A program made the position numbers and the translations under genes. Positions 1 to 63,915 of a stretch of DNA of 64,000 nucleotides are shown in pieces. Numbering within the stretch: the first letter of the stretch is position 1; each line of letters begins with the position of its first letter. Under the pieces are notes generated by a model, which was given only the letters and a program-made list of their open reading frames with translations, had not been told where the DNA came from and did no database searches. Origin of the DNA: Protonemura montana (taxonomy: Eukaryota; Arthropoda; Insecta; Plecoptera; Nemouridae); the NCBI GenBank assembly GCA_947568835.1, contig OX387607.1, positions 2,790,001 through 2,854,000 on the forward strand. The letters run 5' to 3'.

Positions 1-4382
<4,382 letters not shown>

Positions 4383-10300: not shown

Positions 10301-13300
10301 TTTACTTGGCCTTCAAAAAACCAGTTGTGAATAGTTTTTTTCACAACGTTTTGATGTTTTATAATAATGCTGACTGAACGTAAAATTTTACCACATCAAT
10401 TTCCTTGCTATGTCAAATGAAAAAAAAAACTCCCAAACCGAAGTTAACTTAGATTCTTGAGGAAAAGTAAAGGTAATTCACTTTCACAGGATGCAATTAC
10501 AGTTCGTAGGATGAACGTTGATAAAAGTTAATCTCTCAGATGTAAATGAAACTTGATCAGCCAATGTTAACGTTTCTACGATTGAATAGATATGTCGTCG
10601 ATTTTGTTACCTGAAAATATTTGGTATCAGCGCGACCGAGTAATTTGATGAGTCGCTCGACCATGTCCTTGTTCGTCTCCTCGCAAAGTACCAGACTCGA
10701 CAGGGTGTCCAAGTACGCTGGGATGAGCGGGTGGTTGCTGGACAGAGAATCGCTGATTATTTGTGCAGCTTTCTCATGGTCTTCCTCACTGATCACGTCG
10801 GGCAGCAGCAGGATGATCTCACGTTTTGTCTGCGTGGGAAAAAAGCGGTAGCATTTTATTAGTTACTATTCATGCAATCTTTAATGATTACAAAATCAGA
10901 AATAGAATGTAAGACAGCAGTTCATGCGGTGTGCTGTTTACTTTATTTACATCCTTTTATTTGAGTTATATCATTGAGTTTATTACTTTGTAGTTAATAG
11001 GTTAAGTCAGAACCTCAGCATTAATGGATCTATCCATTTATGCTGAGGTTCTGAGGAAGACCTATATAGGTCTTCACAAAATTTGCTGCTGGCTGCCCAC
11101 TATATTGACAAAAATGGTGCCTGGAAATGGTAGTTTTTAATCTGTAGGTCCCTGCTCTTCCTTTATTTTCCCAATCAACATATTCGTAACTTTAACACAG
11201 TGACTCTAGCTTCTTTAAACCCATTTTATGACCAAATTTCCATAAAAAACTCAATGCATTTTTTAACTAGTAATTTGACTGCGAGCAGCTTTTTTAATTA
11301 CTCGTTGTCTACGTACGTCTTCCTTGGTGGCCAGTTCCAGGATGACAAAGAGCTGGTCACAAATGTTGACGTCCCCCTTGATGACTCGGTCCAGGCAGCG
11401 CATCTGCCGCATGATTCGGTGCAGCATCTCAAAGTTGGCTTGCTCCTCTCTGGAAAGTAAAACAAAGGTGATGCAATGTGCACAGCAAAACATTACAACC
11501 TAAGCTCAATGCACTAATACGCATACTGAGGTATTTTACATGTGTGGTATGTCAAAAAGCTGGATGTACGTAAGGGGAGAGAAAATTGGAGTGGTAACGG
11601 AACATAACAAGGGGAGTTGGTGGTCAGCAGAGATAAAATTTTACTAACAAAAGATTAATCTACTGCAGCTTACCACCTTTGCTTTTTTAATCTCGGTACT
11701 TTCTGTTACCATTAAATTTTGTTCCCTTAGAGAAATTGCCGGATTGTATTAGCAATAGAAAATAGCAATAAGCGGTCGATTCCCATTTCCCAATTCTGAC
11801 AGAGATGTTAAATTTCACCAAAGTTGCATTTCGTATTTGATTGTTAGATTTGTGGTGGTTGATAATGTTTGTCTATGGCAGTTTTGCCATAGACAATGTG
11901 GCACTGGTCTAATGGCATCGGTGAATAAGTGAATGATGATGACGAACCTAACTGAGGCTAGAAGGGAGGAGGGCCAACCCGGTGCCGGGACGTAGCCTAC
12001 TACTATCGAAGAGCACCAAGGGGACGACCGGCTTAACGTCTCTTCAGAAGAATGCTACAACTCGAACAACAGGATTCCTTCACAAATACATAATTCAAAA
12101 GGTTGTAAAGCGAGGTGAATAAAGTTGTGCTAACTTCAATGATCTCACAAGAACCAGTGTTTCTCACCCGTAACACCGTTCGTTCCTTGAATTTGAATCA
12201 CCTTTTACTGTCCAGTCTACACGAAACAATAAACAAAACAACATTCCGTGCAACTCACTCTTCATCGATGATGAGTTCGCTAATCTTTGCCAGTAAAATC
12301 CCCCACAGTTTCGGCTGCACGCAATCGACGTTCAGCAGCAGACGCATGAGGCATTCTTGCACCGACTTGCGTGCAAAATCGTCGCTTGATTGCGTGGTCT
12401 CCAACACCCGGCCTAAGTTCTCCATCGAAGCGGTCATGAACGTCTCAAAGTGTTGGACGAAATCATCAACGTTCTGAGGATACTTCTTGTCGTTGCGCAA
12501 AGCAGTGTCTAGTGAACGGACAAAGCTAGCCTGATCACGATCTGGAATCAGTTTTGAATGGTTTTAAAAATTAAATAGTGAACAAGCAGGTTTTGGATTT
12601 TTTTTTTGTAAACAATCTAACAAACTGTAACTACATGTTGTGAGTATTCAAGGTTTAAACATTTTAAATTAACTAATTATAAGACTGAAAGGTCAATAAA
12701 TGTTGTGTTAATATCCAATTTAAGTTCAAGTAGTTCAGGAAAGCAATAAAAAATACTATTGAACATTGTCTTTAGCTAAGTCGGAGGTCAATGTTGAGTA
12801 CTTGAATATTTTAACAAAGTTTTGTAGTATTGTCAGCGAGGAGATATCAAAGAGCAAATCAAATTCAGAAAGTTTTGCAATAGTAATACTGACAACAAGA
12901 TATATTAACAACATTTTTAGTATTTTTAAAACCATTTAAAAAAAAAGGTAAAATAACAAAGAAAATCAAAAAAAAAATTACCAAGACAATTTGGTTCTTC
13001 GCCTTCTCCAAAAGTGAACCCAAAGCTGCCGAGTTGATCAAATAACGGATTACCCGTCTGTGGGCGTATAGTGTTCATGTACGCTGGAACAGTTTTTTTC
13101 CGAGCCAATCCTGCCTGGATTCGTGATCGTTTCTCGGGCGAGCTGGCCGGAGAGCAGATGCTTGAAATGGCCGGAGAACTTGTAGCGAAGTCGGCAAACT
13201 TGTTTGTAGTCGATGTTTGAGTGCGTTTCACTGCCGGCTCGTTGCCGTTCATGTTCTCGCCAGACCGCTTTTGTCCTCTTGGTGGTTCGTCAACGTCAGT

Positions 13301-14644: not shown

Positions 14645-14925
14645 CTGTCCATAAAAAAATGTTGTTTTATATTTCAAATTGACTAAACATGTGTTAACAG
14701 TTTTAATGAGATCACAATATGATATCTCTTTAGCTCTGTTCTACCCACTGGTACTACCTAGTCTAGGAAGTACATGGAGCTAATAAAGAATTTGAAATGG
14801 GGAATTTGTAATCTTTAAACATGATATAATGTAATATAATTTGTAACTTCAATAGCACAATAGTACACCTAGACAGAGAAACCCTGGGGTCCTGTGGAAA
14901 AGATACGCCAAAAACTATACTTACA

Positions 14926-15211: not shown

Positions 15212-18200
15212 ATGAAACTATTAAAACCATCATGGGTAACTCACGATGGTAAGCTTCAGTTATCAATTAGATTTGTATTTAGAAGACTGGAGAGATTTTC
15301 CAATAATTGTAAGTGCCTTCACCTTTTTTTGAATATATTTCAGATCTTCCTATATTCTCCATTGATATCCACCCTGATGGGTCCAGATTTGCTACAGGCG
15401 GCCAGGGAGATGACTCTGGCCGAATCGTCATTTGGAATATGGCTCCTGTTGTTAACGCGGATGTGGAAGATGACATCAACGTTCCAAAAATGTTATGTCA
15501 AATGGACAATCACTTGGGTACTGTTAAAAGAAACGTGCAAAGTTTGCGGCCTGTTATAAACTTACTAATGGTTTACTTAGAGATAACCTAAATTTACTTA
15601 CTCTCTTCCCGCAGCTTGCGTAAATTGTGTCCGATGGAGCTTCTCTGGAAAGTATCTTGCGTCTGGAGGTGACGACAAGTTGATTATGATTTGGAAGATT
15701 AGCAAGTACACAAACGGTGGTACTGTCTTTGGTGGCGGTGGTAAAGTTAATGTTGAGTCATGGAGATGTGCCGGTACGCTAAGAGGACATGACGGCGATG
15801 TCTTAGACATGGCATGGTCACCTCATGACGCCTGGCTTGCTACCTGCTCGGTTGACAATTCTGTTATTGTCTGGAACACACTTAAGATGCCAGGTAAGGA
15901 CCTCATAACCAAGGTGGATGAGATTAATTTTTTAAATTTCTATTTTCATATTTTTCCCTCCATTTGTTTCAATTCTTACAGGAATATACTATTAAACGGT
16001 TCTGCCATTTACTCAATCTTTAACATGTGTAGCAAAGAATTTGGAACTATGGTTAGGTAGAAATTGATCTCTTTTGCGGAAGACTTTGCTTTTGCTGCCG
16101 CCCCTAGCTAAGATAAAATCACAGAGTAAACTGTCCGGTACCCGCTAGATGCGCTGCTAGCTGAAAATCACATTTACGGCATTTAGATTCGGTTCCGGGG
16201 TATTGCCTCGAGCTTTTATTAGCTTTGCCTGTTAACCTGGTGGCAGCAATCGCCATGGAAGACTTTTTGTTATTTCCAGGTTTTTTGTGGAAACTAGTTA
16301 CTTTCATTTGCTAGTACCTATTTAAATATTTTGTCATGCAAATTTGAATCTCATCTGGCAATTTGCAGATTTTTTTTTCTTGCTAATGTTTGCTATCATT
16401 GCTTGTTTTTTAAATGCTTTATTCTTATAATTATTACTATGTTCCTATTTCTCAAATGGAATGTCAGCACTTTGGCTTTTAGCACCCTATGTATTATAAT
16501 TACATTGTGATAGGATAAATAGACAATCATTTTGTTGTTGGCAGCCGAAAAATAACATAAAACAGCATTAATAAGACATTTTTAACAATATACTTTTGCA
16601 AACAGCCAGCTGATATGCTCAACAGAATGTCACAATTTGTGTTATGTGTTTCAGAGCGTGTAGCAGTTTTAAAGGGACACACCGGCCTCGTGAAAGGAGT
16701 GACTTGGGATCCTGTTGGGAAATTCCTGGCATCGCAGTCTGACGACAAAACGTTACGAGTTTGGCGTACGGCAGACTGGAAAGGTAATGCAATCGGAGGG
16801 ATTTTCATTAATCGTGATATCATTCAGTTGTGTCTTGGTGTTCTTTTGTAAAACCGAACGGTTTGGCGTGTTGGAAACACCGGTTTTTTTGTGAGATGAC
16901 CAAAGTTAAACAAAACTGACTGGGTCAGGTATTTGATGGGTGACCATCATACACATGACCAGTTCTGTTCGGGAGAGAGGTTGGTGGGTTGAAAGTTGGT
17001 ACAACAACTGAACTCGCCAAGCTTATCAACCTCTCGACAGCATGGATTTGTGGAGGAATCCTGTTGTTCAAGTTGTACCGTCCTTCGGAAAGGACGTTAT
17101 GCAGGTGATCCCCTCGGTGCTCTTCGACAGGAGTAGGCTACGTGCTGGCACCAGGCTTCACCACCTCCCTTCTAGTCTAGGTTAGGTTCATCGTCATCAT
17201 CACCCACTCATTCACCGACGCCACATCGCCCACTGTCAAAACAGTGCATTGTTAACAAAGCAGATCGATAAATCGTCAATGTGTGTTTAATCACAGAGGA
17301 GACGGTTGCCAAGGATCCGTTTGAGAACTGCAGTGGCACCACGCACGTCCTGCGGCCTGGCTGGTCACCCGATGGTCTGTACCTTGTGTCGGCTCACGCT
17401 ATGAACGGGGGCGGACCCGTTGCTCAGATCATAGACCGAGACCAGTGGAAGGAGGCGATGGACTTCGTGGGACATCGGAAGGCAGTCACTTGTGTGGTAA
17501 GGAACACTACATTATTTATGCATACATTAAAAAGAAACGAATGTGGTAAAGTAGGATAGAGAGAAGGTGCGCAACTTACTGGAAAAGAAAACTGCTGCTG
17601 TGTAATGCACTTATCAAGAAATTTCTAGATTTCCTTAAAATTTTGACGTTTTGGCGAGTTGCCTTCGTCAATATTAGAGGTGTATGTATAAAAGTAAAAT
17701 GTGTCATTTTTCCTGAGCGTTGGAAATGAAATGCGAAGTAGTCGTACTATTTGATAAAATAAGAGCTATCCCTGCAGTAACATAAGAAAGCAGAATTGAG
17801 AAGCTCTGTCAGGCGATCTCAGCATCTCCATGGCTACCAAACGTTGAATCTACCATTGAACCTCCTATGCTAGGCCATGATATACCCGTGGTAACATAAG
17901 AAAGCAGAATTGAGAAGCTCTGTCAGGCGATCTCAGCATCTCCATGGCTACCAAACGTTGAATCTACCATTGAACCTCCTGTGCTAGTCCATGATATACC
18001 CGTGGTAACATAAGATAGCAGGATTGAGAAGCTTTGTCGGGTGATCTCAGCATCTCCATGGCTACCAAACGTTGAATCTACCATTGAACCTCCTATGCTA
18101 GGCCATGATATACCCGTGGTAACATAAGATAGCAGAATCGAGGAGCTCTGTCAGGTGATCTCAGCATCTCCATGGCTACCAAACATTGAATCTACCATCG

Positions 18201-28919: not shown

Positions 28920-29070
28920 ACCGTTGTTCGAGTTGTACCGTCCTTCTGAAGGACGTTAGGCCTGTGGTCTCCTTGGCGTTCTTCTTCAGGAATTAGGATC
29001 CCTCCCCTTAAAGAACGATTTGGTTCATCATCTTCATCACCATTAGTGCGACTGCGCCAGTCATCTTTAT
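28920..29070 (+). mobile_element. 5S-SINE family, internal fragment (copy F)
   Basis: CCGTTGTTCGAGTTGTACCG, CCTTCTGAAGGACGTTAGGC and a TTCATCATCTTCATCACC-like end match the middle and 3' body of the family. The head and first body half are missing. Confidence 0.7.
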
Positions 29071-32300: not shown

Positions 32301-33607
32301 AATTGTTTCATCTATCAGACCTGCCAGACAGACACATATGATTGTCCAATATCGTGACAGACCAGACCGTGAGTTCACACTCTAACGACTAGAGACGTGC
32401 AAACACATAGATAAGCGACAAGGGAATTATCTGGCACACGAACGTAGTCTAAGCAGATCGTATGATGGCTGGGTGCTGCATACACTCATGGACCCATGGA
32501 CAGAGTCCTCCGCCACCTCCCCCCTAACAAAGCGAACACGACTCTTTCTGGGACTTGTGACATTGACTCGACGCTGTACATTCTCTAGTAGCAATTAATT
32601 CTCTAAGTGACAATTTGCATAGTTTGATAACACACCTTTGCCATTTATTATACCTTTTAAGTGTTTTTCTCCCTGAGCTCCTCCTCTTCTTGAGCAACGC
32701 CCGATGCCAGAGGAAATCAAGCAGGACGAAAATATTATTTCAATTATACGTTAGGTTTGCGCACGATCGAGGTGCATTGGTACCTGCAGATGTGTACTTA
32801 CGCAAATAAATACATACACATACATATCTACATGCATACAGATCACCAAGTTGCTAATAATTGCAAAAATATTACTGTCTTTCTTTGATTTTTTTGTAAA
32901 ATCTCTCTCAAAATATGTTCACATGAATGTACATACCTCACAAATATTCCTCTCGGAGTTTGATTTTATTTTTTGTACCTTTACGGATTTTGCAGAGTTT
33001 ATTTTTATTTTTTGAAGTCGATAATTTCTCATAGCTTTCACGTCGTGCTGGGTTTTCCTGTCAAGACAGTTTTTCAAACAGGCGCAACGTGCGTCATCAA
33101 GTCCATGAAGAGCAGACTCCTTTCCATTTCGTAGCGCGTAGTCTTGGCAAACTTGATTTTGATTATACGTTCATTAATTCGATGACTTCAGCTTGATAAG
33201 GAAATCCGGTAGAATCAGGTCTCTGAGAGCAGGTTTCTTGAGATGTCTCCACCGATAGCAATCTGCAATCTGCAGTGTGCACCCATGTCAAGACTTGAGC
33301 CTCTCTGAAAAGGTTTAACCTGCAAAATCACCAATCGGTTGACGCGCGTCAAAACCCAAATAACAAAAAGAGGTTTTCGCTTTTGAGAATAATAAAACCC
33401 TTGGATTCTGTTTAGCAAAAACACTTCGGTACATTCACTTCATATTCACTTCATATTTCGGTACATTGTGTGAGTTTGGCCGGGAGGATGGTATTTATGG
33501 CGACCTCGAGCCCACTAACGAATCAGTGTCCGGTAATATGTAACATATTCTCAGTTCACAAATATATTTGGTAAATTACTTGTCGCTTATCTCCGTGGAA
33601 GTGAAAC

Positions 33608-33664
33608 TTTAAAAACCTTTTAGTTCGGCCAGTCTACAATCTCCATCTTTGTGTTTCAGCCGCC
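33608..33664 (+). promoter_or_regulatory. Yellow-family gene start region: TATA-like box or 5' UTR splice acceptor
   Basis: TTTAAAAA at 33608-33615 is followed by GGCCAGTCTAC (initiator-like A at 33631). This would be a core promoter with a short leader, although the 23-base spacing is tight. Alternatively, TTTGTGTTTCAG at 33648-33659 is a good acceptor, which would place the ATG (33665) just inside exon 2. The sequence alone does not decide between them. Confidence 0.4.
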
Positions 33665-35059
33665 ATGAGGAACACACAGGCCCTCCTGCTTCTGGCTTGC
33701 CTTGCCGCCGCCTCAGCACAAAACACCAAGTTGAAAGAGATATTCACATGGAAGCAACTCGACTTCAACTACCCTAACGATGATGCTCGTGAGACCGCGA
33801 AGCTGACCGGCGAATTCGTCCCCAAGAACAACCTTCCCTTGGGCGTGGAAGTGTGGCGAAACCGCGTCTTCGTCACGGTCCCCCGCTGGAAAGCCGGTGT
33901 GCCCGCGTCCCTAACGTACTCCATCTACGACCCATCCGTAACAACCAGCTCCCCGAGACTTATCCCGTATCCCAACTGGGAGACAAACGCCCTGCCGAAG
34001 GAAGGCGCTTCGGAGAACGATACGCACATCATCTCGACGTTCCGTGTCCGCGTTGACGCGTGCGACAGACTGTGGGTGATGGACACGGGCCTTGCCGACA
34101 TCCTAGGCACGCCGAAATCGTACAACGCTCCCCAGATTCTCATATACGATTTGCATACCGACGAACTGGTCAAGAAGTTCACGATCCCAGCCGAACACAT
34201 TAAAGAGCACACTTTCTTTGCGAATATCGTCGTCGACACGGACGGCGAGAAAAGCTGCGAAAACGCATTCGCGTACATCCCCGACCTTGGCAGTTACGCA
34301 GTCGTTGTTTACAGCCTGAAAGACAACGATTCGTGGAGGGTCAAGCATCACTACTTCAACTTCGACCCCCTCAACGGCGATTACAACGTCGGTGGCGTCA
34401 ACTTCCAGTGGACCGACGGCGTGTTCGGCATCGCCCTGTCCAAACGCAACGAAGACGGATTCAAGACAGCGTACTTCCACGCTTTGTCGAGCACCAACGA
34501 GTTCACGGTGTCCACTGAGATCCTGAGGAACAAGACGGCAGCGTCTGACAGCTACCACTCGTTCAAACTGCTCGGCAGTCGTGGACCCAACACTCAGTCT
34601 TCAGCGTCGTTCCTCGATGAGGAGTCTGGGGTTTTGTTCTATACACAGGTCAACAGAGATGGGGTTGGCTGTTGGAATACCAAGGATTCGGAGTATTCCG
34701 AAGCGACTCAGGGACTGGCAACTCAGGACAACGAGACGTTTGTCTTCACCAACGACTTGAAGGTGGATCGGGACAGCAACTTGTGGGTGCTGTCTGACAA
34801 GATGCCGGCGTTCATCTACAGGGAGTTGGACCCTGAGCAGGTTAACTTCAGGATCTTCACGGCGACCGTGAAGGATGCCATCCGGGGGACGGTGTGCGAG
34901 CGTCTTAGCGTTGACGCGGGAAAGAAGGAGGAGATGAAGGTTGTGGCCTCCGAAGAGCACAGAGAGGAGATGAAGATTGAGCGAGAGGAGAATGATAGCC
35001 CGAAACAGGTCGTGAGGACTGTTTCGAACGTGATGAGGAGCTTTAGCAGGAAGTCTTAA
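33665..35059 (+). CDS. Yellow / major royal jelly protein family protein, intronless coding region (464 aa)
   Basis: A secreted six-bladed propeller protein of the Yellow family. Members act in cuticle melanisation and some convert dopachrome. The catalytic role of this member is unknown. Residues 1-19 form a signal peptide (MRNTQALLLLACLAAASAQ). Family strings follow in order: LKEIFTWKQLDFNYPNDDAR, GVEVWRNRVFVTVPRWKAGV, PASLTYSIYDP, LIPYPNWETN, RVDACDRLWVMDTG, ANIVVDT, FAYIPDLGSYAVVVYS, GVNFQWTDGVFGIALS, SYHSFKLLGSRGPN, VGCWN and DSNLWVLSDKMPAFIY. The length is normal for the family. A charged Glu/Lys/Arg tail (about 420-464) follows the conserved domain. It most resembles Yellow and Yellow-c-like proteins, but I cannot fix the orthologue. 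The coding region is GC-rich and has no intron, unlike its neighbours. Confidence 0.93.
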   Translation: MRNTQALLLLACLAAASAQNTKLKEIFTWKQLDFNYPNDDARETAKLTGEFVPKNNLPLGVEVWRNRVFVTVPRWKAGVPASLTYSIYDPSVTTSSPRLIPYPNWETNALPKEGASENDTHIISTFRVRVDACDRLWVMDTGLADILGTPKSYNAPQILIYDLHTDELVKKFTIPAEHIKEHTFFANIVVDTDGEKSCENAFAYIPDLGSYAVVVYSLKDNDSWRVKHHYFNFDPLNGDYNVGGVNFQWTDGVFGIALSKRNEDGFKTAYFHALSSTNEFTVSTEILRNKTAASDSYHSFKLLGSRGPNTQSSASFLDEESGVLFYTQVNRDGVGCWNTKDSEYSEATQGLATQDNETFVFTNDLKVDRDSNLWVLSDKMPAFIYRELDPEQVNFRIFTATVKDAIRGTVCERLSVDAGKKEEMKVVASEEHREEMKIEREENDSPKQVVRTVSNVMRSFSRKS

Positions 35060-35737: not shown

Positions 35738-38700
35738 ATGGCCGTCAGAACTTACGGGGACAAGCCTGTCAGTTTTCAAATCGATGGAGCTGGCGAATAT
35801 TTTTGTATTGGGTCGGAGGTAAGTGATTTATGTTACGAAAACGTAATTTTCTTCTTTATTTATTATGTCTCTTGCTTTATGCTACGCCAGAATGGCTAAA
35901 AACTCGGTTTGCATCGGCGGCTTACATTTTTAGGTTGGAAACTACCTCCGACTCTTCCGAGGGTCTCTATACAAGAAGTACCCTGGTATGTTTCGGAGGA
36001 GCATCACAAATGACGAGAGAAAAAAGCTTGTTGAAATCGGATTGAGTCAGCACGTTTTAGCGTCCAGTGTATCGTTACTACGGGCAGCGGAAGTCGAAGA
36101 CATCATTGACGGTAACGATGAGAAATACAAGGCGGTATCTGTTCACTCTTCGGAACCACCATTACCAAGAGAAGGAAAGTCCAAGAAAAGTATGCCTTGG
36201 GTGCCGTCCATTCCAAACAGCTCCCACCTTGATGCCGTGCCTCAGGCAACGCCAATAAATCGCAACCGTGTTAACAACAAGAAAGTGAGGACGTTTCCTC
36301 TCTGGTAAGACCCAGTATGATCAGAAATATCATTTAGAGCTCCACTTATTTCTAGCATCCTTGATAATAATTTCTCGCTCTTTATTTTATCAGCTTTGAT
36401 GATACTGATCCAGCCATCATAATTGAGAATGCCTCTCAGATGGAATTCCTTGTACCGATTCGTCTGGACATGGAGATTGAAGGGCAGAAGCTTCGAGATA
36501 CTTTCACGTGGAATAAACATGGTGAGCATGCACGTTATTTACACTTAAATCTACACTAACCTAAAACCACTAATAACCAGATTGTTCTCTATCTATGCAA
36601 AATCAAAAACATGAACTAGGTATTCTAGTTAGATATATCTTTATGTTGGTATGTTATCAGGGTATCAATTGAATGTGAATTGAATGTGATAGCTTCAGTC
36701 TCCACCGAATTACTGTCTTTGTCCCACAGTATATTCAAACACTCCTTGTCACTTAACTTTTTCCAAAAAAACTGTAATTTTGCCTTAAATTTATAGCAAA
36801 AGTCACTTTGTCTGAATCTGGATACAATTTCCTGGGAGTTGGATTATTATGAAGCTAGACTAGTCGATGCATTGCACTGCATTCTTAATTATTGGCTGCA
36901 AATAATAGTATTTGTCATGGTTTTATAACCCTTTCTGTGACTTCAGGCCTCTGTAGTACCATTTACCAAACCATTTACCAGCTACGTACATACTAAACAA
37001 AGCCCTTGCGCTTTGTTTCAGAGAGCCAGATCACTCCCGAGCAGTTTGCCGAGGTGCTCTGCGACGACCTGGACTTGAACCCGCTGACGTTTGTCCCGGC
37101 AATCGCTCAGGCAATTCGCCAGCAAGTTGACGGCTTCCCGACAGACAATATGATCGAGGAGAATTGCGATCAGCGCGTCATCATCAAGCTCAACATTCAC
37201 GTCGGCAATACTTCGCTTGTCGATCAGGTAACTTTGTTGGATTCCCTTTAACAACGCTAATAGATAGCCTCACTGAGGCTTTGACTGCTTGCCTAGACAA
37301 TCTGTTTTGATTTGCAATCAGTATGATATCGATTTGGTAAACGTTACACAAAGCCGCTAAGCAGTACCTACACACAATGCTCTGCCTGGTTTTAAACTGT
37401 CAAAAATGCCCTTCCCTATCTTAGGATAAAATCTTATTTAAATTGCAAACGCTTGCAATGCGCGGGGTATTTTATTATTATCAACACTATAACCGTCTCA
37501 AAAATGGATGCCCAAACGGGGATCAAATCGGGGATTCCCATTTGGGCATCAATTTTTGAGACGGTTATGGTGTTGATAATATTAAAATACCCTTCCCTAT
37601 CTTATTGTAAGTATTAATGGAATTAAGTTTTAAAGTTATTTTGCCAAAATTTTAAGTTAGTTTATTTATAATAAAACCTGTTATTGAAAAACATCGATGA
37701 CTTCTGTGTCTATGCAGTATTTTTGCAACCCTGTAAACTGGTTGCGGGTCACTGGAGCTTTTTTAGGGCCGATAAACTCCTCGTATCAAAGCAATACAGG
37801 GAAACACTTCAAAATAAACACTGGTTAGTTTTGATGAGATAAGGAAATGCACGTTATGGAAGCAGATAAGGAGATTGTGACTGATTAAGAGAGGTTTTTT
37901 TACACTTTGGCTTCTCCGACCCAGTTACTTTAAGCAATTGACCTGGTTTTATCTAAATTTTGGAAAAGTACATATGAGTCCCAGCATTTGCTAATGGTTG
38001 TGGGAAATTTGTTGTCACATTCGTTTCTCTCTTGGCTCACAGGTCGAGTGGGACATGAGTGAGAAGGACAACAACCCGGAGACGTTTGCGATGAAGCTCT
38101 GCGCCGAGCTCGGTCTCGGCGGCGAGTTTGTGACGGCGATCGCATACAGCATCCGGGGGCAGCTCAGCTGGCATCAGCGCACGTATGCGTTCAGTGAAGC
38201 ACCCCTGCCTACCGTAGAGGTAAGTCCAACACCGTTTCCATTGGACTGCTGTTCATTTTGCTTGGATGTTAAGTCTGCGGCTAGATCTTGGTGCATGTTA
38301 GAACGGTACAACTCAAACGACAGGATTCCTCCATTAATCTGTCCCGTCTGGAGATTGAAAAGCAAGGCAAATGAAGTTGTAGTATTAACTTCAATTCCTC
38401 CAACCTCTCTTCCAAACAGAACTGGACATGTGTAAGATGGTCACCTAATACCTGACCCAGCGCAGTGTTGCTTAACTTTGGTGGCCATATGGCTACCTCC
38501 TACATTCAAACCCAATCTCCTTTGCATAGTAATTGTGTTTTTAACTGGTAAGTTTGGGTTCAAATACTGCATGAAGACTTTGTACATTACGCCCGGCCCA
38601 ACCTGGTCGGTAGCTGTCATTGCTCTTTAAAAAATATTGGCAGCAAGAAACATGCTCCGAGTTAAGCCGAAAGCAAACTTTCCTTCCAACCATGAACACG

Positions 38701-45060: not shown

Positions 45061-47267
45061 TGGTCTAGGAAGCCGTGTAAAAGTTAATTACTGGTAGGGT
45101 TGGATTTGGTTTCAGAGGGGCGTTAATCACACCGCGTTCGTTTGCATGCACTGGTTATTGTCTCTCGAATCACCGAAAGAGGGAATCTTTTCGGGCTAAA
45201 TCACTCTTGCACCAAGCAGGACCCTTAGCAACAAAGTAATTATTATAGTATTGCAAAGTAGAGGTCAGCGGTATTCCCTCAGAATTGTTCAGTGCCACGA
45301 CATAAAAGAGTTGCACTAACCTCTAGTTCTAATGCTGAAATTGGTGAGGGCTGAATTGCTGTCAAGGTTATGTAGTTCGAGATCTCTCTTAAAATTATTG
45401 TCGTTCATGACCTTCTAACGTTTCTGATCATTTTTGCGAATGACTACTGAAATGGTAGCTACCAAACGCGTATTTTTTTCGTCGCTTCATGTACCTACTC
45501 TGTTTTTTTTATATGGCTTTCGTCGTTAGACTACCTATAACATCACCCATTCTGCTCCACAACTCTGCCAGGTTTGGATAGGATATCCAAGACAAATTTC
45601 TAGACGCAAAGCTCGTTTTGATTGAAACGTAACCGCCAAATAATATAAAGTGAATAATCGTATACAGTGACATTTTTGCGTGTGCTCTCGCGTGTTCTTC
45701 TGATTGGACCAGAGTGTGCGTTACATAAACCCATACGTTGTTGTGATAAGTACACCATGCTACTGTGATCGCCCCGAGGGGTGAACTCTGTGCGAGCTCT
45801 CCGTGAATCCGGCGCCGAGATGAGGTGAAAAAGCACAGGTGGGTGGAATTGGATTGACTCTGCTATGTTACACATATACCAACCCGAGAGTACGGCGTGC
45901 ACGTATGTGTCAGTTTAGTGAATGTTATTAAATGAAATTGAAATCGTGTAACGGTGCGAAATGCCTAAAAGGGCACTGAGATATGTTTATATGCGAATTT
46001 GTGGATTTGCTTTCGTTGATATGCGTCTCGTGGTTTATGAGGTAGTCGCCGTTACCTGCCTTCAGTTCTGACATGACCCAAGAGTCCAGACGCAACGAGC
46101 TAAATCATAATTAGTTTTTCGCTTGACTGACCACGGTAGTTAAATTGGTACATTGGTAAGATACTGGTTTAGTTTATGTTTGGGTAGCCACGTTCCTCGA
46201 CAAATCTTTGTTTTGGTGTCCGGTGGGATATCGTATACTATGACATGAATCATAGAAACCTGTAGCCGAGATTAATGCTCCAGGGTGGTTTTTGTAACGT
46301 TGCGCGAAGAGCGAGAGACGGGCGAGAAATGTCTTTATTTTTGTACGTGCTCCAGGTAAATGTTGCAATTGTTGTTTCGGCTACGTGAAACGTTACTCCA
46401 TATGGATGACAGTGTTTGTTATAGATGTTATTGTTGGTGGTATTTTGGGGTTTATTATTTTAGTATCAACAGGGATTTTTTGTGTGGCATTTCGACGAAG
46501 ACAAATCGTGTCATGTCCTCGGCGCTAGGATAGGTACGACTCGACAATGAGCTGGCACAATTCAATTACTCATTACACAGCAATATATTGTAATAAATGT
46601 CGCAAGGCAGGGTTTAATGGTTCTAAGGATATACATATATTTTTTTAATAGTTACCACTGAATATCCACTAAATATATCGATATAAAATCATTACATTTT
46701 GAACAAGCCTGTGTTTTTAATTGTCTGTGAGCTTACAGGGCTAAGATATAGTTAAGATTTGGTACAAGTCATTGACAGTCTTTGACAAGATGAGCAGCAT
46801 TACGAAAAGCAAGTTTTAAATAGAGTCTCCAAATATCTATAGTAGTCCGTATAATCTGTATTCTAGATATCGATCATGTACATTAATCGTACATTACATA
46901 CATTTAAATTACCGAGATAACCTTCGGCTTTTTTAAGGAAAAAGTTTAATAATCGCTATCCTGATTAGAATTAATGATCAAAGTTCGACCAACATTATGT
47001 TTCGATACTCCGTCCAATGAAACCACGTTTACTAATTCCACCTGTAAGCCACAAAGCGACCTGCAAGCACGTGACCTCTGCATACCACGTTGATAATAAT
47101 GAAATCACAATCGAATAGTAACCACAAACTGGACGATGGGAGGCGAACAGGTCGCTAATGGAAGGGTTAGAGGGCTGCAAATCTGCTGGGAGTGGCTGAC
47201 TGCGATTACAAACGTCGGAAAGGCTGATTTGAAAATTGTTGATTGATAACTTGTAGTGTTTGTCTAC

Positions 47268-48062
47268 CAGCCATGTGGCTCTGATTAATGGCGTCAGAGA
47301 ATGTAGGGATGATGATTAACCTAATCTAACCTAGAGAGAGGATGGAAAACCTGGTGCCGGCGTGTAGCCAACTCCTGTCGAAGGCTTGACGTATCTTTCG
47401 AAGGACGGTACTACTCGAACAACAGGATTCCTCCTCAAATTCATGATGTCAAGAGGTTGATAAGCAAGGCGAGTGAAGTTTTTGACCCCCATCCCGCCCC
47501 GGCAGCATGGCGATCGCTTCACACTACATCGCCTCTGCCTTACACTATCAAAGATTGTGCAGCCCGTTGCAAGCAACAGGAATCTCTGATGTGCGGACAT
47601 GCAAGGATTCATGCAAGGATCAACAATGTCGTGGAGGTAGAATGCATTGTTCAGGTTTTTGGCTGGTGTAATGTTATCATGCTTGGTAGTTAGTTGGTTC
47701 GACATTCCAAGATGGAATCGAGAAGAGAGAGAGAGAGAGGCAGTAAAAAGACCGACACGAAAGAAAGATTGTGACGATCAAAAACTCTGCCGTGACATGC
47801 AGACAGAGAAGAGCAGGTTGCATTCCCACTGGAAGTGAGTTTGCTAAATATGCTGTAGGAGGGCTATCAATTAGTCTACGTGGGACTAGACATTGAAGTA
47901 GGGCGAGTGAAGGTGTCGCACTAGCTTTTATCACAAAATCTTTCTCTCAAATGGAACTGGCCATGAGTGTGATGATCACCCAACCAGTACCTAAACTGAA
48001 GTATTGGTGGCTTAACTTCATGATGTCACAAGGACCGGTGTTTCCAAAACGCCAGTACTGTT
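47268..48062 (-). mobile_element. 5S-SINE family copy split by about 470 bp (copy E)
   Basis: 47268-47481 carries the 3' two-thirds of the body in reverse. 47955-48062 carries the start of the body and the 5S-like head in reverse (minus strand AAACACCGGTCCTTGTGACA, TGAAGTTAAGCCACC). The order and orientation fit one element interrupted by unrelated sequence at 47482-47954. Confidence 0.6.
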
Positions 48063-48857: not shown

Positions 48858-49017
48858 GTATACGTCGCGTTTTCACAGGTGTGTGGCGATCGATTGTATT
48901 TAAATCGAGGGGTGAGAGTGGTTTCTTGATACTGGAGACTCGTGTGAGTTACAGGGGCTGCTTTAAGTTTAAAATGTTTGTTTTGTGTAGTCGGCTATGA
49001 GCAAACAAATTGTCTGC

Positions 49018-49188
49018 GAACCAATACCTAACCCAGCGCAGTGTAGCTCAACTGTGGTGATCTCATGTGAACCGGTGTTTCCAACACGCCAAACCGTTCG
49101 GTGGTCACCTATCCAGAACGTGACCCAGCGGAGTGTTGCTTAACTTCGGTGGTCACACAAGAACGCTACACGCCAAACCGTTCAGCTG
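49018..49188 (-). mobile_element. two tandem 5S-like SINE heads (copy H)
   Basis: Two successive reverse-oriented 5S-like segments, about 49018-49105 and 49106-49188. Each contains a version of GGTTTGGCGTG...AAGTTAAGCAACACT...GGGTCA on the minus strand. Neither is followed by the SINE body. Confidence 0.7.
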
Positions 49189-54200: not shown

Positions 54201-56252
54201 TTTAAGAGATAAAAACTTTATTTTATTGACTCAACCAGTTTTCTTTTTGGCTCTATAAACCAAAATATATGACCGCAGGTTGAATCATGGCGATGCGTTA
54301 CGTCTTTTTAGATCGAATGAGCTTGTCTTTTTACTGGTGGAGATATAATTATGTTTGTAAAGTGTTTTACATGGTTTAGTTGTAAACTTTGTCTGCTAGG
54401 TAGCTAGTGTAAATATTTTTTGTGATTTCTTGTAACTGCACTAGCAAAGCACAACTAGAGACAATGGTCACGATCCACCTTTTGGTTCTTTGTCCCGCGA
54501 TTTTGATAACCTTACACTTAGAACACGAAATTTGAACTGAAAGACAACGTTAAGTCTTTAAGGGGGTTGAAACAAGCCGCCTCAAGCAAAGGGAGCGTTG
54601 TAACATCAACGGGGTAAAGTCAAAACCTTTCATGCCTTGAAGACTTAACTAGAATCATTTTATTACCGAGTCGTTTGTTGACCTTTGGTTAGTTCTCGGT
54701 GATATTCTCCAGATGCGACCATCGTAGAAACGCGCCGGTATTATTCTTTGCAGACAACATCAGAGCAGAGGAAGTGGTCAGAGGAAAGATAACAATGATG
54801 CAGTTTATTTTTAGTCCGCGCCTAAAACTCGAGCACAAACGGGGCACTAAAAACAGTGGACATATGCTTTCATGAGCGTAGAAAGTTGAAGTCGTGTGAA
54901 GCTACATAAAACGATGGGTTTGATCTGTTTAACGAGGTAAACAAATTTAGTTTTTACTGTCGGGGTCGTCGTCTGTTTATAATGATGCCTTCAAAAGAGT
55001 CACGCGACCTATCCGAACTAGAAATAACATTTTAAAAATTTTGTTTTTTCGTCTTAATTTAGTTTTCATGCGAGGAGTTCGCTTAGAAGCTTTCGACGCT
55101 CTAAAGAAGGTCTCTTCGGGAAACCAGTTATTTTTTATTTTGTTATGAAAAATTTGCTACTTTTCGCACAAAAAAGAAATAATTTGATTTCTTTTCCATC
55201 TAAACTATTATTTTTCACGTACGGTACCAACTGAATGACCCGGTATTTTCTTCAGAAGTTCCAGATAGAGCGAAGACAGGAAAGAAAGGTGTATATTTCC
55301 AGTACGCTTCACGCTATTGTGCTTTATACCCTCCGGGTAATTTCATGGAACATGCTATGCTCAGGAGTCCATGTTAGTTGAGTCCCAGATCATGACCCTC
55401 CCCCTTTTCCCTTCCGTTACCTAATTCTTGATGTTCCTTTGAAATAATGACCAGGTAACCCTACAAATTCAGTAGTATAGGCGAAAAGTTTATTTCAAGC
55501 TGATTTCCTTTAGAAGGTGTCAGCACTTCTACATGACAAATCAGGTCAAATTTGCTCATAAAATACTCGTTTCTCGCCGGTTTCCATAACGATTCGGCTG
55601 CAACGGGTCATCATGGTCGTGAAATACATCAACTGTTAGCAACTGATCAAGCTGTCGCTAATTATTAACGATTTCTATGAACTTTTTAGCAAGATCTAGT
55701 CAACCGGATCCAAGTTATCTTAGCGTTCTTAAAACAGCCGGCGTCGACGAGCAGACGATTTAATTGCTTGAAGCAATGTCGGCAGAGCAAGTTTGATGCT
55801 CCCGTTGATTTGCGCATCATTTAGTAATCAGCCACGCTTGCCAGAGATGAGAGTAGGTATGCAAATCGTGACGGTACTTTTTTATGCAAAGTTATTGCAA
55901 TTTATACAAATTTTCGTCTTTGATGTTGCATTGTTTGCATATCGACGGCGAGCAGCTCCAGCTAACAGAGCAATAAAGGCTTGACGTGCAGACAGATAAG
56001 TTTCAATAATCACACGTTTGAGCTTGCTTTGAGCACGCTTTGAGCGTCGGTCACATACACAAAGGTCGACCATGATTTGTGTTTTTGTAGCCAGTGTGAA
56101 AGGGGATTCTTGGCGAGTGTTCGGTCTTCTGCCTTGTTTGTCAGCTATAAGTTTTGATCGATTCAATATGGTTGATTCTTTTAAATATATTTACGAGCAC
56201 TACTAACCTTTCCAAAATGTGTACCTAGTCGGGGAATTCCCCATTTTGGTGC

Positions 56253-56675
56253 AGAACGGTTTGTCGTGTTGGAAACACTGGTCTTCGTGAGATCACCGAA
56301 GTTAAGCAACACTGCGCTGGGTCAGGTATTGGATGGGTGACCATCATACACATGACCAGTTCTGTTCGGGAGAGAGGTTGGAGGGATTAAGGTTAATACA
56401 AAAACTACACTCGCCTTGCTTATCAACCTCTCGACAGCATGGATTTGTGGAGGAATCCTGTTGTTTGCATTGTACCGTCCTTCGGAAGGGAGTTAAACCA
56501 ATTGTCCCCTTGGTGCTCGTCGACAGGAGTAGGCCACGTGACGGCACCGGGTTTCCCCTCCTCACTTCTAGACTAGTTACATATTATCATCATACTTATC
56601 ATCATCCATTCACTCACCGGCGCTATTAGACCAGTGCAACATGGCCCATTGTTAAAACAGTGCGTCATTCAATGA
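56253..56675 (+). mobile_element. 5S rRNA-derived SINE, best-preserved full-length copy (copy C)
   Basis: The head, about 56255-56340, contains GAGATCACCGAAGTTAAGCA and GGTCAGGTATTGGATGGGTG. These correspond to the internal control region of 5S rRNA genes (GATCACCGAAGTTAAGCA and the C-box-like GGATGGGTGACC). The body then runs from GACCAGTTCTGTTCGGGAGA to TTGTTAAAACAGTGCGTCAT. No poly-A tail is present. Confidence 0.88.
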
Positions 56676-58635: not shown

Positions 58636-61600
58636 CTACTGGAATCTCCGCCATCTTCTAGCCGCAGTAGGTTTGAACGCAGCTTTCGTGACACGTTTTG
58701 GTTTGGTTCCTCGCATAGCATCTGCCACACGTTTCAGCGTAGATTCTGCCTCATGTCTCAGCGTAGATTCTGCCACGGGTTGGAGCGTAGATTCTGCCAC
58801 AGGTTCGAGCGTAGATTCTGCCGCAAGTCCTGCCACAGGTTTTGCCATAGTTTTCTGTGAAGACTCCTTCACAGGTACCTGCTCAATTTCGGGCGCTTCA
58901 ATAACGAAAGGCAACGTATTTTCGAGAGATTCCTCGTCCGACGTCCCCAGAGATTCCGAAAGCGCCGTTTGGCTCGTAGTTTTCGTATTCTTCGCCGTCA
59001 TAAGAGACAGAGTCGTCGAGGTGAGTCCGTTCAACTTGATGCACTTGACGCACGCTTGGGTAGGCATTCCAACGCCTCCGGTCTGCTGGCAATGCGGGAA
59101 GAATATGTTATCAGGGTCCAATTGCTCCGGAAAACACAAGCTGTTGTAGTTACCGCACTTTTTCAGGCAAGGGTCGTCTTCACAATCCCGACCTTCGCAA
59201 CCCCTATCTGTCGTGGACGTTCTGGTGGTATGCGTAGGGAGCGATGGTCTCGGGGCCGGAGTCGGCGTCACGGCAAACGTCTTGAGACAATGCAGACACG
59301 CGATCGGTGGCAATACGGAGTTGATTTCGTCGTCGCAGTGTGGGTAGAATAAATCGAAGGGATCTATGTACTCTGGCAGGCAGATGTCTTCGTAGTTCAG
59401 GCAGCGTTGGCGGCAAGGATCGTCTACGATTTCGGTGACTGTGGGCTTTGTTGGTGTTATGGTTGGATTGTGGGTAGGTTGTGGGTTGGTGATGGCCCCG
59501 TTGACTTTCAAGCAGAGTAGACACCCTTTCTGAGGCATTCCAACGCCGCCGGTATCTTCACAGTGAGGGCTGAACTCGTCTTTGATGTCGATCCATCGAG
59601 GCACGCAGAGACCTTCGTAGGAGCCACCACATTTTTCCAGACATTTTTCATACACGCAGCCAAATTTGGATGTTCTACAAAGATCAGTATTTATTCCAGG
59701 AATAGGTCTACTTAGAGGTGATTGGGGCGTTGACGACACTGGGTTTGGCTGGAGTCCGGGACTCGTATTTGGAAGTTTGGTGTTGTATTTTCGGGTAGTT
59801 TTGACTTGAGGGTATCGCACCGATGTGGGTCGTTGAGATTTTGGTGTCAGCCCGTGAGACTGGATGCAAGAAATGCACCACTGGGTTGGTCTCTTGAGTA
59901 TGTTTAGCTGGTGCTCGCAATGCGGGCTGTAAAGATCCGTCGGATCCAAGAACTCAGGCATGCATATGTCTTTGTAACCTTTGCAGATCGAATAGCAAAA
60001 GTCGTTCTGTAAACGAAGAATTGAGTCATTTTTAGAAATCAAATAAATTATATCTCGATTAGAATTAAAAGTGTAGTATTGCCAAAAACATTGTAATAGT
60101 AATAGATGGGTGAAACGAGGGTTTTCGTGGCAATCTAAAACAAGTAACCCGTGCCCGGCATCGGACAGTTCATAACAATGTAATAGTAATGGGTGGGTGA
60201 AACAAGGGTTGTCATGGCAATCTAAAACAAGTAACCCGTGCCTGGCATCGGACAGTTCATCACAATGTAATAGTAATGTGTGGGTGAAACAAGGGTTGTC
60301 ATGGCAATCTAAAACAAGTAACCCGTGCCCGGCATCGGGCAGTTCATCACAATGTAATAGTAATGGGTGGGTGAAACAAGGGTTGTCATGGCAATCTAAA
60401 ACAAGTAATCCGTGCCAGGCATCGGGCAGTTCATCACAATGTAATAGTAATAGGTGGGTGAAACAAGGGTTGTCATTGCAATCTAAAACAAGTAACCCGT
60501 GCCCGGCATCGGGCAGTTCATCACAATGTAATAGTAATGGGTGGGTGAAACAAGGGTTGTCATGGCAATCTAAAACAAGTAACCCGTGCCCGGCATCGGA
60601 CAGTTCATCACAATGTAATAGTAATGGGTGGGTGAAACAAGGGTTGTCATGGCAATCTAAAACAAGTAACCCGTGCCCGGCATCGGGCAGTTTATCACAA
60701 TGTAATAGTAATGGGTGGGTGAAACAAGGGTTGTCATGGCAATCTAAAACAAGTAACCCGTGCCCGGCATCGGGCAGTTCATCACAACGTAATTAGCAAC
60801 GCGTGGGAGGAACAATAAGGAATCTAAATAATGGGTACCTGGATGCTATGCGCTGCTAGAAAAAGTAATTAGGTGATATCATGTTAAGTGTATGGTGACC
60901 AGAATAATACTAATTAACATTTTGATACGAGAAGTCTGAGTGCTTCAATGAGTTCTGAAGAAAAGTTAGACGTAGTCAAATTGACTGAATTGTCAGATTG
61001 TCAAAGCTAGCAAACCTCTAATTATTCACATGGACAACTAATATCATTATTGAAGAGTAGGTACTCTCGACCGCTAATAGAGCGCACTGCAGTACTTTTA
61101 AAAGCTATTTCATCGTCTGCAAATTGCCATGAAAACGTCATAAACTTTCTGCTAATAAGTTACTAGTTGTAGCAGAACAATCGGGAAGTGACCGGCAAAA
61201 AATCTGAACACAAACTCATGCGTCATGCACTGGGAGGCTGATACTAAACACTGTAAAAACAACGATATTAAAATGTGCTGTCATCTGACACCACCTGCTC
61301 TTGACATCTTTTGACAAATAGTCTTAGCTTGAAAGTATGTGTGTGTGTGAGAGAGGGTGTGAGGGTGTATCTTTGATATCGGTGCTATACGCAAGTTGTG
61401 AAAATGAGTGATTTATAGGCTGTCAGAATCATCAAAGGTTGCTTAAAAATGTTTTAAGAGATAATTTAGGAAAGATTGATCGAGTAAGTATGAAGAGATT
61501 TTGAACTAGTAGGAGATGACTGGGACAGAACAAAGAAGAATATGATTAAACAGAGAAAAATAGGATGAGATGGTGACAAGAGAAGAAATTCAGAAGAAGT

Positions 61601-62059: not shown

Positions 62060-63804
62060 AGCGAACGTTTTGGCTTACAGCTGGCAGAATTTTAGCCACA
62101 CGCTGCTCTCGCTGCATATCTATTATTACTGTTGTAACGGTTTTTTTATTACAAATATTAGAATGCAATGTATTATAAGAGTTTTTGTCTCGTATGCCAA
62201 GGTGATAAATGAACAACAATTCAGTACTTGGTACCAAGCGGTTTAACAAAAAAAAAAAAACATAACTAAGTACCTTACGTCGGTTAGGTGAGCTAAGAAA
62301 CGAACACGTGAGCGTGACCAAGCTTTTGGGCAACGTCGTCTAGCAATTACACAGAGACATTTGTACTGAAAGGTATTGCTTCGAAACCACTTCTAACCAC
62401 TGGAGATCGCTGAAACTGGATTTGGTTGTTTTCGATCTTCTTCCAGCTCGGTTAAAAATCGCTGTCTCATTGACAGCAATCTTATCGCGTTGCAGCAATT
62501 CGTATACGATATTCCGGTGAGCGAGGAGATTTGTAGCAACTTTTGAGTGAAAAACGCACGGTTCACTACTTTAGTTAGAGTAGTTTTATTCAAGCTACGC
62601 AGTCCAAACTTTTTATTTTGTTGGAATCAATTCATTGCAGGATTCCTGTGTCATAAAAAAAAAGTAAATTTTAATAAGTATTTTGTACCTCAATGTTTAA
62701 GATTTTCGAAAGTAAAAGCATAAAATTGGCACATAATGAATTGACATTTCCGATTCTGCGAACGGCAGATTTCCAGCTATTTGCTGGAAAATGCGTCAAA
62801 CACGGGCCAACGAAAAGCGCTGCTTCGAAAGCTGACTCGAGGTTAAGAAACGTACTAACGAGTCAAACGAGATGTTTACGCTGCAAAGGTGTGCCTGCAA
62901 TTGTTGAACACAGTTACATGCCATATTGTTGAAGAAAAGAGTAAATATAGGAACCGTTGGATTCTGTAGAATTTAAAATCTGTAGATCAGACTCCCTCCC
63001 AACATCATATTCGCGAAATTAGTGCCAAAGTGCCAGAGTTTACACTTTTTTAGAGGATTGTAAATTGTAGTGGCAAAACAAAAATTAATACGAATTGGGC
63101 CCGATTTCGCCAAAATGAAGCCAAATTTGATATTGAAGTCAGTGAAAGATGAAGTCAGTATTTGATATTCCCTATATTAATGACAATTTTCAGTGGTCAA
63201 GTAAGTCAATTTAAGCAACATACGTAAAACAAGAAACATCGTTTCTAGCACGGAGTATTAATCAAAAGGGAACGTCTGGTGATGTAGAAATATTTGACCG
63301 TCACTTATAACTGAAACAATTTTCTTTTAAAACTCAAAGAGTGGTGAAAAACAAGCCTCGACTGGTCTTGGTTTAAATTGTTAACGGAGGCTAGCACAAA
63401 GTGAACAGCTACACAATTAAAATTGATGATGCGCCAGAACAGGGATTTCTGGAATAAATACCAAATTCAATGAAAGTTCCCATATTTTTTTGAGTGGTTG
63501 TTTATTTTTATGCTTTTAAGCCGTTGAAGATATAAAAAATGAGCAAACCTGAATTTGACCTCGAAACCTAGTTTCAACCGAACTTAAGTCAAAATCAGCT
63601 CAGAGCGTTAAAATTTCAACTCTTCATACTGCAACTGGAATCTCGAAAGTTAAAATTTATATTTTTGACGGTAGGTCCACAGTTGTCGAGGGTTAAGGAC
63701 AAAGTTGTCTCGTTCATAATTTATCATACAAGCATTTTCGCTCAAAGAGGGATTTTCGACTAGAATTTTAGCAATGCTTAAAAATCTCCGTACAAATACA
63801 CCAA
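62060..63804. other. upstream flank of the cysteine-repeat gene; no gene seen
   Basis: AT-rich, with only short frames lacking recognisable motifs. It should contain the promoter of the gene starting at 62059. Confidence 0.55.
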
Positions 63805-63915
63805 GCAATTCGGTGGTCACCCATCCAATACCTGACCCAGCCTGGTGTTGCTTAACTTCGGTGATCTCACGAGGACCGGTGTTTCCAACACGCCAAACGG
63901 TGCGGTGGTCACCCA
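63805..63915 (-). mobile_element. 5S-like SINE head (copy I)
   Basis: Minus strand: CGTTTGGCGTGTTGGAAACA, CCGGTCCTCGTGAGATCACC, GAAGTTAAGCAACACC and GGGTCAGGTATTGGATGGGT. This is the cleanest match to 5S rRNA in the window. The SINE body does not follow. Confidence 0.8.

Follow-up and report, generated by a model that had tools for sequence, protein, structure and literature searches.

A 5S-headed SINE in Protonemura montana and tandem arrays of its promoter-bearing 91-bp unit

The repeat at positions 56253 to 56675 of the window, i.e., the whole 64,000-nucleotide stretch of DNA analyzed here, raises the question of whether this insect genome carries a short interspersed element (SINE) with a head derived from 5S rRNA and, if so, how the element is copied. 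A preliminary description made from the sequence alone had listed nine places in the window as copies of one family. BLASTN of the window, using the 56253..56675 copy with short flanks as the query, matched all nine places, with the best E at each place between 0 and 1e-7, and the same nine were matched by a consensus derived from genomic copies. The copy at 56253..56675 (+ strand) is near full length, corresponds to consensus positions 4-423, is 90% identical to the consensus, and has a possible 7-bp target-site repeat, ATTTTGG, with a target-site duplication (TSD) score of 7, which is reached by 2.3% of mismatched flank pairs. A second near-full copy lies at 16853..17255 (+; consensus 1-422, 85% identical). 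We also found a 5'-truncated copy without a head at 606..938 (+; consensus 103-432), a copy with an internal deletion at 11896..12182 (−; consensus 3-54 joined to 140-393), a body fragment without a head at 28923..28991 (+; 210-279), a partial copy at 38300..38483 (−; 44-231), and, at 47259..48054 (−), an old single element split by ~415 bp, with consensus 12-171 at 47896-48054 and 153-407 at 47259-47480. Two tandem 5S-like heads without a body, in which consensus 92 is joined to 1, are present at 49021..49183 (−), and a head-only copy (consensus 1-93) with remnants of neighboring 92-bp units on either side is present at 63814..63906 (−). Thus, the ~300-bp body that had been described as common to the copies is found in seven of the nine, while 49018-49188 and 63805-63915 consist of head only; the statement that most copies carry a 5S-like head holds for seven of nine, those without it being 606-938 and 28923-28991.

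The consensus is based on an alignment of 27 genomic copies from 9 contigs together with the window copy (448 columns, including the tail) and describes a non-coding element of ~445 bp in which a head (1-92) is followed by a middle piece (93-139), a body, and, at the 3' end, GTGCGTCGTTAAACACCACAAAT with AAT-like repeats after it; it contains no TTTT. In the window copy, the head at 56252..56370 (+) scores 47.8 bits with the Rfam 5S rRNA model (RF00001), and the only other hit above the 38-bit gathering cut-off is at 63800-63893 (38.7 bits), while 48989-49094 (30.6 bits) and 16854-16973 (29.5 bits) score below it. With the same model, host 5S genes score up to 117.5 bits among the best 47 of 52,711 candidates scored. 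In a local alignment, the SINE and a host 5S gene match over positions 17-92 of both, small gaps cancelling out, with a score of 98 for the consensus compared with a maximum of 32 and a mean of 17.1 for 1000 dinucleotide shuffles, and a score of 85 for the window copy (shuffle maximum, 29). Hence, the head proposed in the preliminary description to derive from 5S rRNA aligns to 5S rRNA far better than shuffled sequence does. Clear 5S homology stops at consensus 92 (window 56342).

Using what we take to be the numbering of boxes A, IE, and C on the 5S gene, and with window positions in the 56253-56675 copy given by consensus + 56250, box A of the 5S-type RNA polymerase III (pol III) promoter maps to 56300..56314 (+), the intermediate element (IE) to 56317..56322 (+), and box C to 56330..56347 (+). 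Compared with the host 5S gene, the consensus keeps 13 of 15 bases in box A and 13 of 18 in box C. By these alignments, the head is derived from 5S rRNA with all three boxes included, the IE keeping just 3 of 6 bases. Presumably, the element would be transcribed by pol III from this 5S-type internal promoter.

To follow the family beyond the window, we searched the genome (258.5 Mb in 34 contigs). Among the best 40 of 4,080 candidates scored, 39 other near-full copies are 87-89% identical to the window copy. Fragments of the SINE are present in 7 of 20 arbitrary 3-kb genome stretches, which include near-full copies at L095 (95%) and L099 (75%) and arrays at one locus, L096; identity to the consensus is 71-98% for the matched pieces of this sample and of the window. 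In the 28-copy alignment, dispersed copies have common 5' and 3' ends and an (AAT)n-like tail. TSDs of variable length, with a score of at least 7, were detected in 21 of 27 single copies, which are the best matches to the window copy or neighbors of these rather than a random sample; L043, L001, and the window copy were left out of this count. For mismatched flank pairs, which served as the null, the mean score is 4.1 and 2.3% reach 7. Dispersed copies with common ends together with TSDs show that the element moves by retroposition. Based on the 5S homology, the dispersed copies with common ends, the tail, and the TSDs, the element is confirmed as a 5S-headed SINE (SINE3), an uncommon but known kind; the genome-wide consensus and the TSD search that the preliminary description had proposed both bear out its identification of such a SINE. 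A body motif was not detected when viral contigs were scanned for it.

The preliminary description placed 5S-headed SINEs in fishes and a few other groups, and those other groups already include insects, since 5S-headed SINEs are described for moths and a beetle in the relevant sections of PMC3272025, PMC8010984, PMC10886601, and PMC7245038. Compared by description, the element shares with HaSE3 of Helicoverpa, PxSE4/PxSE5 of Plutella, and SINE3-1_TC a 5S head with boxes A, IE, and C, a body, a LINE-like 3' end, and a short-repeat tail, as far as these are set out in PMC3272025 and PMC8010984; the same two papers report TSDs for HaSE3 relatives. The element is therefore a further member of the known SINE3, and its array-bearing form, described below, is uncommon and the more unusual part. 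The word "tandem" is absent from the main texts on the HaSE3 and PxSE4/PxSE5 families (PMC3272025, PMC8010984), and a literature search that covered papers outside subscription journals and Repbase Reports, judged mostly from listings, brought up no report of a 5S SINE with tandem promoter arrays.

The element would be copied into new sites by a LINE reverse transcriptase that recognizes the SINE 3' end, here CGTTAAACACCA and then short repeats, located behind a possible hairpin. In the search for such a LINE, the best 150 of 1,781 reverse-transcriptase candidates were scored, and the 3' stretches of eight from differing score groups, and later three more ends, were compared. In three of the eight stretches (L105, L106, and L107), a C-terminal reading frame precedes a hairpin, a TTAAACCCC-like motif, and short repeats; the remaining five did not show this type of end, which may lie beyond them. 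Pfam identified an RNase H domain in L106 and L107 and no domain in a 160-residue piece of L105, which is 45-47% identical to the L106/L107 families. Tested against mononucleotide shuffles, the SINE end matches L105 (0 of 2000 shuffles), L111 (p 0.0005), and L113 (p 0.001), matches L112 weakly (p 0.02), and does not match L107 (0.09) or L106 (0.24). The preliminary description had suggested that the 3' body could point to the mobilizing LINE; three of six tested LINE ends match at p ≤0.001 over a short stretch of 16-27 bp, and the exact partner was not found among the LINE ends compared. When the SINE tail was compared by BLAST with the first eight LINE stretches, the best E was 0.047, and a search of the fetched loci for SINE tails outside SINEs yielded nothing convincing among the first 41 matches listed. 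The SINE 3' end can fold with its closing stem placed as in the LINEs, with a folding energy that is not unusual (z −1.4). As judged from these alignments, the 3' end seems to resemble, briefly, LINEs of the same genome that are related to RNase-H-bearing ones. I elements carry RNase H. Our guess is that the partner LINE might be of the I clade, in line with the Tribolium element SINE3-1_TC, which is said to be I-clade mobilized in the part of PMC7245038 that deals with it.

Outside the window, many copies contain a feature that is absent from the preliminary description, namely, 91-bp units (consensus 49-139) arranged in tandem, each with the 5S internal promoter and its boxes A, IE, and C. 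The corresponding segment of the window copy, at 56299..56389 (+), is single. The first arrays were met near single copies at 3 of 27 fetched loci (L003, L027, and L035). Arrays were then searched for using three units as the query, and the best 40 of 2,554 candidates were scored; because the arrays were found by similarity to one array, this sample favors young, uniform ones. The array-bearing form of the element is organized as head, n units, body, and tail. In the genome, the exact 22-mer of the unit-unit junction occurs 16,001 times, the exact unit-to-body junction 4,459 times, and the exact head-to-unit junction 3,672 times, while reversed-sequence controls of all three gave 0 each. Among 47 arrays, some of which are cut by the ends of the fetched stretch and from which the L035 array was dropped because it is the same locus as L043, 17 have head and body, 4 a head and a cut body, 11 a body without a head, and 15 no body; thus, the head is kept in 21 and both SINE ends in 17 of the 47.

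The longest array read has 35 units (L046). The 100 listed junctions, all in the first 2.3 Mb of contig C1, form 26 arrays with 1-48 junctions by span (median, 1; mean, 5.5), and the array of ~48 by span has 28 exact ones. Array matches are located within 3.5 Mb of contig ends in 35 of 40 cases compared with the 31% expected on these contigs, and 21 of 39 plain copies are. Six body-less arrays (L027 1-527, L043 1445-2272, L049, L061, L068, and L072) end at consensus 92-107, just past box C. Separately, apparently fixed array ends (226-279 and 1-56) were rejected when the loci were read, as they came from the limited flank scored in the search. A second tandem form consists of the 5S part alone (92-bp unit, consensus 1-92), with 756 exact junctions genome-wide and at least 11 consecutive junctions at C4:22197336-22198277; the copies at 49021-49183 and 63814-63906 of the window are diverged members of this form.

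Next, we considered how the arrays arise. TSDs are present in 10 of the 17 array copies with head and body, and these ten have 3-16 units; for instance, L066 has 16 units and a perfect 12-bp target-site repeat, and L075 has 3 units and a perfect 14-bp repeat. Among the arrays scorable for TSDs (all 17 with head and body, 10 of 11 head-less ones with body, 10 of 15 body-less ones, and 2 of 4 with a cut body), duplications were found in 1 of 10 head-less arrays with body, 0 of 10 body-less arrays, and 0 of 2 with head and cut body. Across 383 of 386 extracted units with 46 array labels, the L035 array being excluded, unit divergence averages 3.9% within arrays and 4.1% between arrays, and shuffling the labels on a subsample gave 4.1%. 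The closest relative of a unit sits in its own array in ~97 of 377 cases, and 169 of 216 rare variant instances are confined to one unit. At a common variant site, 29% of the units differ from G; 39 of 46 arrays are mixtures of this second unit type and the main type, with the two in random order (170 adjacent-same pairs versus 170.2 expected, p=0.54). Both types are also present among single copies (16 A, 11 G, and 1 T). At four sites with rarer variants, mild clustering in neighboring units is observed (p 0.007-0.036). The nearly equal divergence within and between arrays and the random shuffling of the two unit types argue against simple local expansion long after insertion, while the clustering of rarer variants and the ~97 of 377 closest relatives in the same array support that some local duplication happens.

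The ages of units and bodies were compared in 25 array elements, with median divergences of 2.6% for bodies and 1.9% for units, so that units are slightly younger (Wilcoxon p=0.034); the two values are weakly correlated (Spearman 0.26, p=0.21). In L050, L073, and L045, the units are much younger than the body, and in L052, the outer units and the ends are old, while the inner units are 0-2% diverged. Divergence within arrays does not fall with array length (Spearman 0.20, p=0.20, 43 arrays). We read this as arrays made mostly before or during insertion from a mixed pool, followed by later local changes, with gene conversion among arrays as a serious rival; the elements with decoupled ages, the scarcity of TSDs in incomplete arrays, and the bias toward contig ends, as for satellites, count against arrays being present at insertion. 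Duplication of 49-139 would probably be seeded by a short internal direct repeat (GAAGTTA near 48 and GAAAGTTA near 138), and the most likely route to longer arrays would be jumping of the reverse transcriptase, or recombination of source elements, between homologous units. Each insertion would then carry a differing number of units and a shuffled mixture of unit types, and several consecutive pol III control regions would come to lie in one element, like the promoter monomers of mouse L1. Overall, we give a probability of about 0.5 to the reading that this is a LINE-mobilized 5S-headed SINE in which the 49-139 arrays, with their several pol III control regions, are largely complete when the element inserts.

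A quite plausible alternative, to which we would give somewhat less than even odds, is that single-unit SINEs insert and that unequal crossing over and ectopic gene conversion then expand the 91-bp unit distally and homogenize it genome-wide, making it a SINE-derived satellite. The distal location of the arrays, their length (~48 junctions by span, 28 exact, in one case), the body-less arrays with TSDs in 0 of 10, the young units in old bodies of a few elements, the old outer units of L052, and the clustered rarer variants all agree with this alternative, and the mosaic order of units could equally come from gene conversion between arrays. However, in most of the 25 elements, bodies and units are of about the same young age, within-array divergence does not drop in longer arrays, and the two unit types are mixed at random. 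Squamates provide a precedent for the satellite alternative in a promoter-bearing unit with a subtelomeric bias. As described in the sections of PMC10702118 on these satellites (sSats), they are SINE derived, often occur at thousands of loci with SINE ends on their flanks, and prefer subtelomeric locations; the snake unit consists of the 3' portion of the SINE head, promoter box included, and some of the body, and in a cobra sample, units are 89% alike and parent SINEs 64%. The Discussion of that paper also refers to SINEs in tandem or dimeric form and, for other SINEs, to short duplications within the element. The squamate satellites are the nearest precedent for the arrays described here, and mouse L1 monomers would be their functional analogue. 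In contrast to the reptile satellites, which have box B, mostly keep one SINE end, and have units more alike than the parent SINEs (PMC10702118), the arrays described here have an entire 5S-type control region in every unit, 17 of 47 keep both SINE ends with TSDs in 10 of these, and the SINE bodies are about as young as the units.

If inner units acted as promoters of their own, as in mouse L1, new copies would start one 5S length upstream of the next control region, i.e., at consensus ~92. Starts at 87-97 in 4 of 11 head-less copies with body (uncorrected p=0.035) are suggestive of this, as is L076, which begins at 97 and has a weak 10-bp TSD, but the remaining starts are scattered over 29-108, a TSD is present in just 1 of 10 scorable head-less copies with body, and 21 of 47 arrays retain the head, so that we consider this route improbable. 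That the family consists of dispersed 5S pseudogenes rather than a SINE would account for the clear homology over 5S positions 17-92 but not for the constant body, the common 3' end, and the TSDs, and we give it next to no chance.

Mouse L1 is transcribed by RNA polymerase II. Returning to arrays that are largely complete at insertion, we tentatively suggest, while holding it to be rather doubtful, that they are a pol III counterpart of the L1 promoter monomers, in which a type-1 control region has been amplified into variable arrays assembled mosaic-fashion during retroposition. Both are retroelements in whose 5' part tandem promoter units vary in number; mouse L1, on the other hand, is an autonomous LINE with ~3-4 units on average in its youngest subgroup and measured promoter activity, as given in the relevant part of PMC9022269, while the SINE arrays are known from sequence. 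The TRIMs Cassandra and Ajax are also mobile elements that borrow the 5S internal promoter but differ in being LTR elements, with Ajax making 5-bp TSDs, according to the passages on them in PMC10886601. Kapitonov and Jurka, as cited in PMC3272025 and PMC8010984, proposed that the strong dependence of 5S-type promoters on upstream signals should leave a 5S copy silent, or nearly so, after retroposition. If the pol III counterpart is real, every unit would provide the upstream sequence missing from a solitary 5S promoter, and the host 5S genes (best 47 matches scored) might even face competition from the more than 16,000 additional TFIIIA-type sites. An element with many control regions in a row is a natural test of whether extra units rescue transcription, and it brings SINEs, satellites, and promoter monomers together in a single genome with units that can be dated and typed.

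Several minor observations were made along the way. We claim no association of arrays with a 3-bp body deletion, as 14 of 25 array elements have exactly three gap positions compared with 45% genome-wide (1,243 of 2,758 exact matches). By listed positions, the subfamily with this deletion reaches 42.7 exact matches/Mb at C1:30.0-31.85 Mb versus 0.16/Mb at 2.4-27 Mb, and the undeleted form 18.4/Mb versus 1.3/Mb in the same two regions. On contig C11, positions 1 to ~106000 (L012-L020) contain a 9,508-bp repeat, each copy of which has three 5S rRNA genes in both orientations, and a histone 3' stem-loop is found near 5S genes in L013 and L016, which suggests linkage of these 5S genes to a histone gene cluster. 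COX1 matches are present in the 25.9-Mb contig C4 at 5760925-5762262 and 5776811-5777755; the first scores 455.5 bits, the same as COX1 of contig C34, which reads through with the invertebrate mitochondrial code, so C4:5760925-5762262 reflects either a recent transfer of mitochondrial DNA to the nucleus or a misassembly. In the window, a long near-palindrome at 37470-37588 (−), with a MIR4374 score of 60.6 bits that is below the 105-bit cut-off, is probably a MITE rather than a microRNA, and long stop-to-stop frames are present at 4913-6985 (690 codons), 12926-14740 (604), 33605-35059 (484), and 58636-60792 (718).
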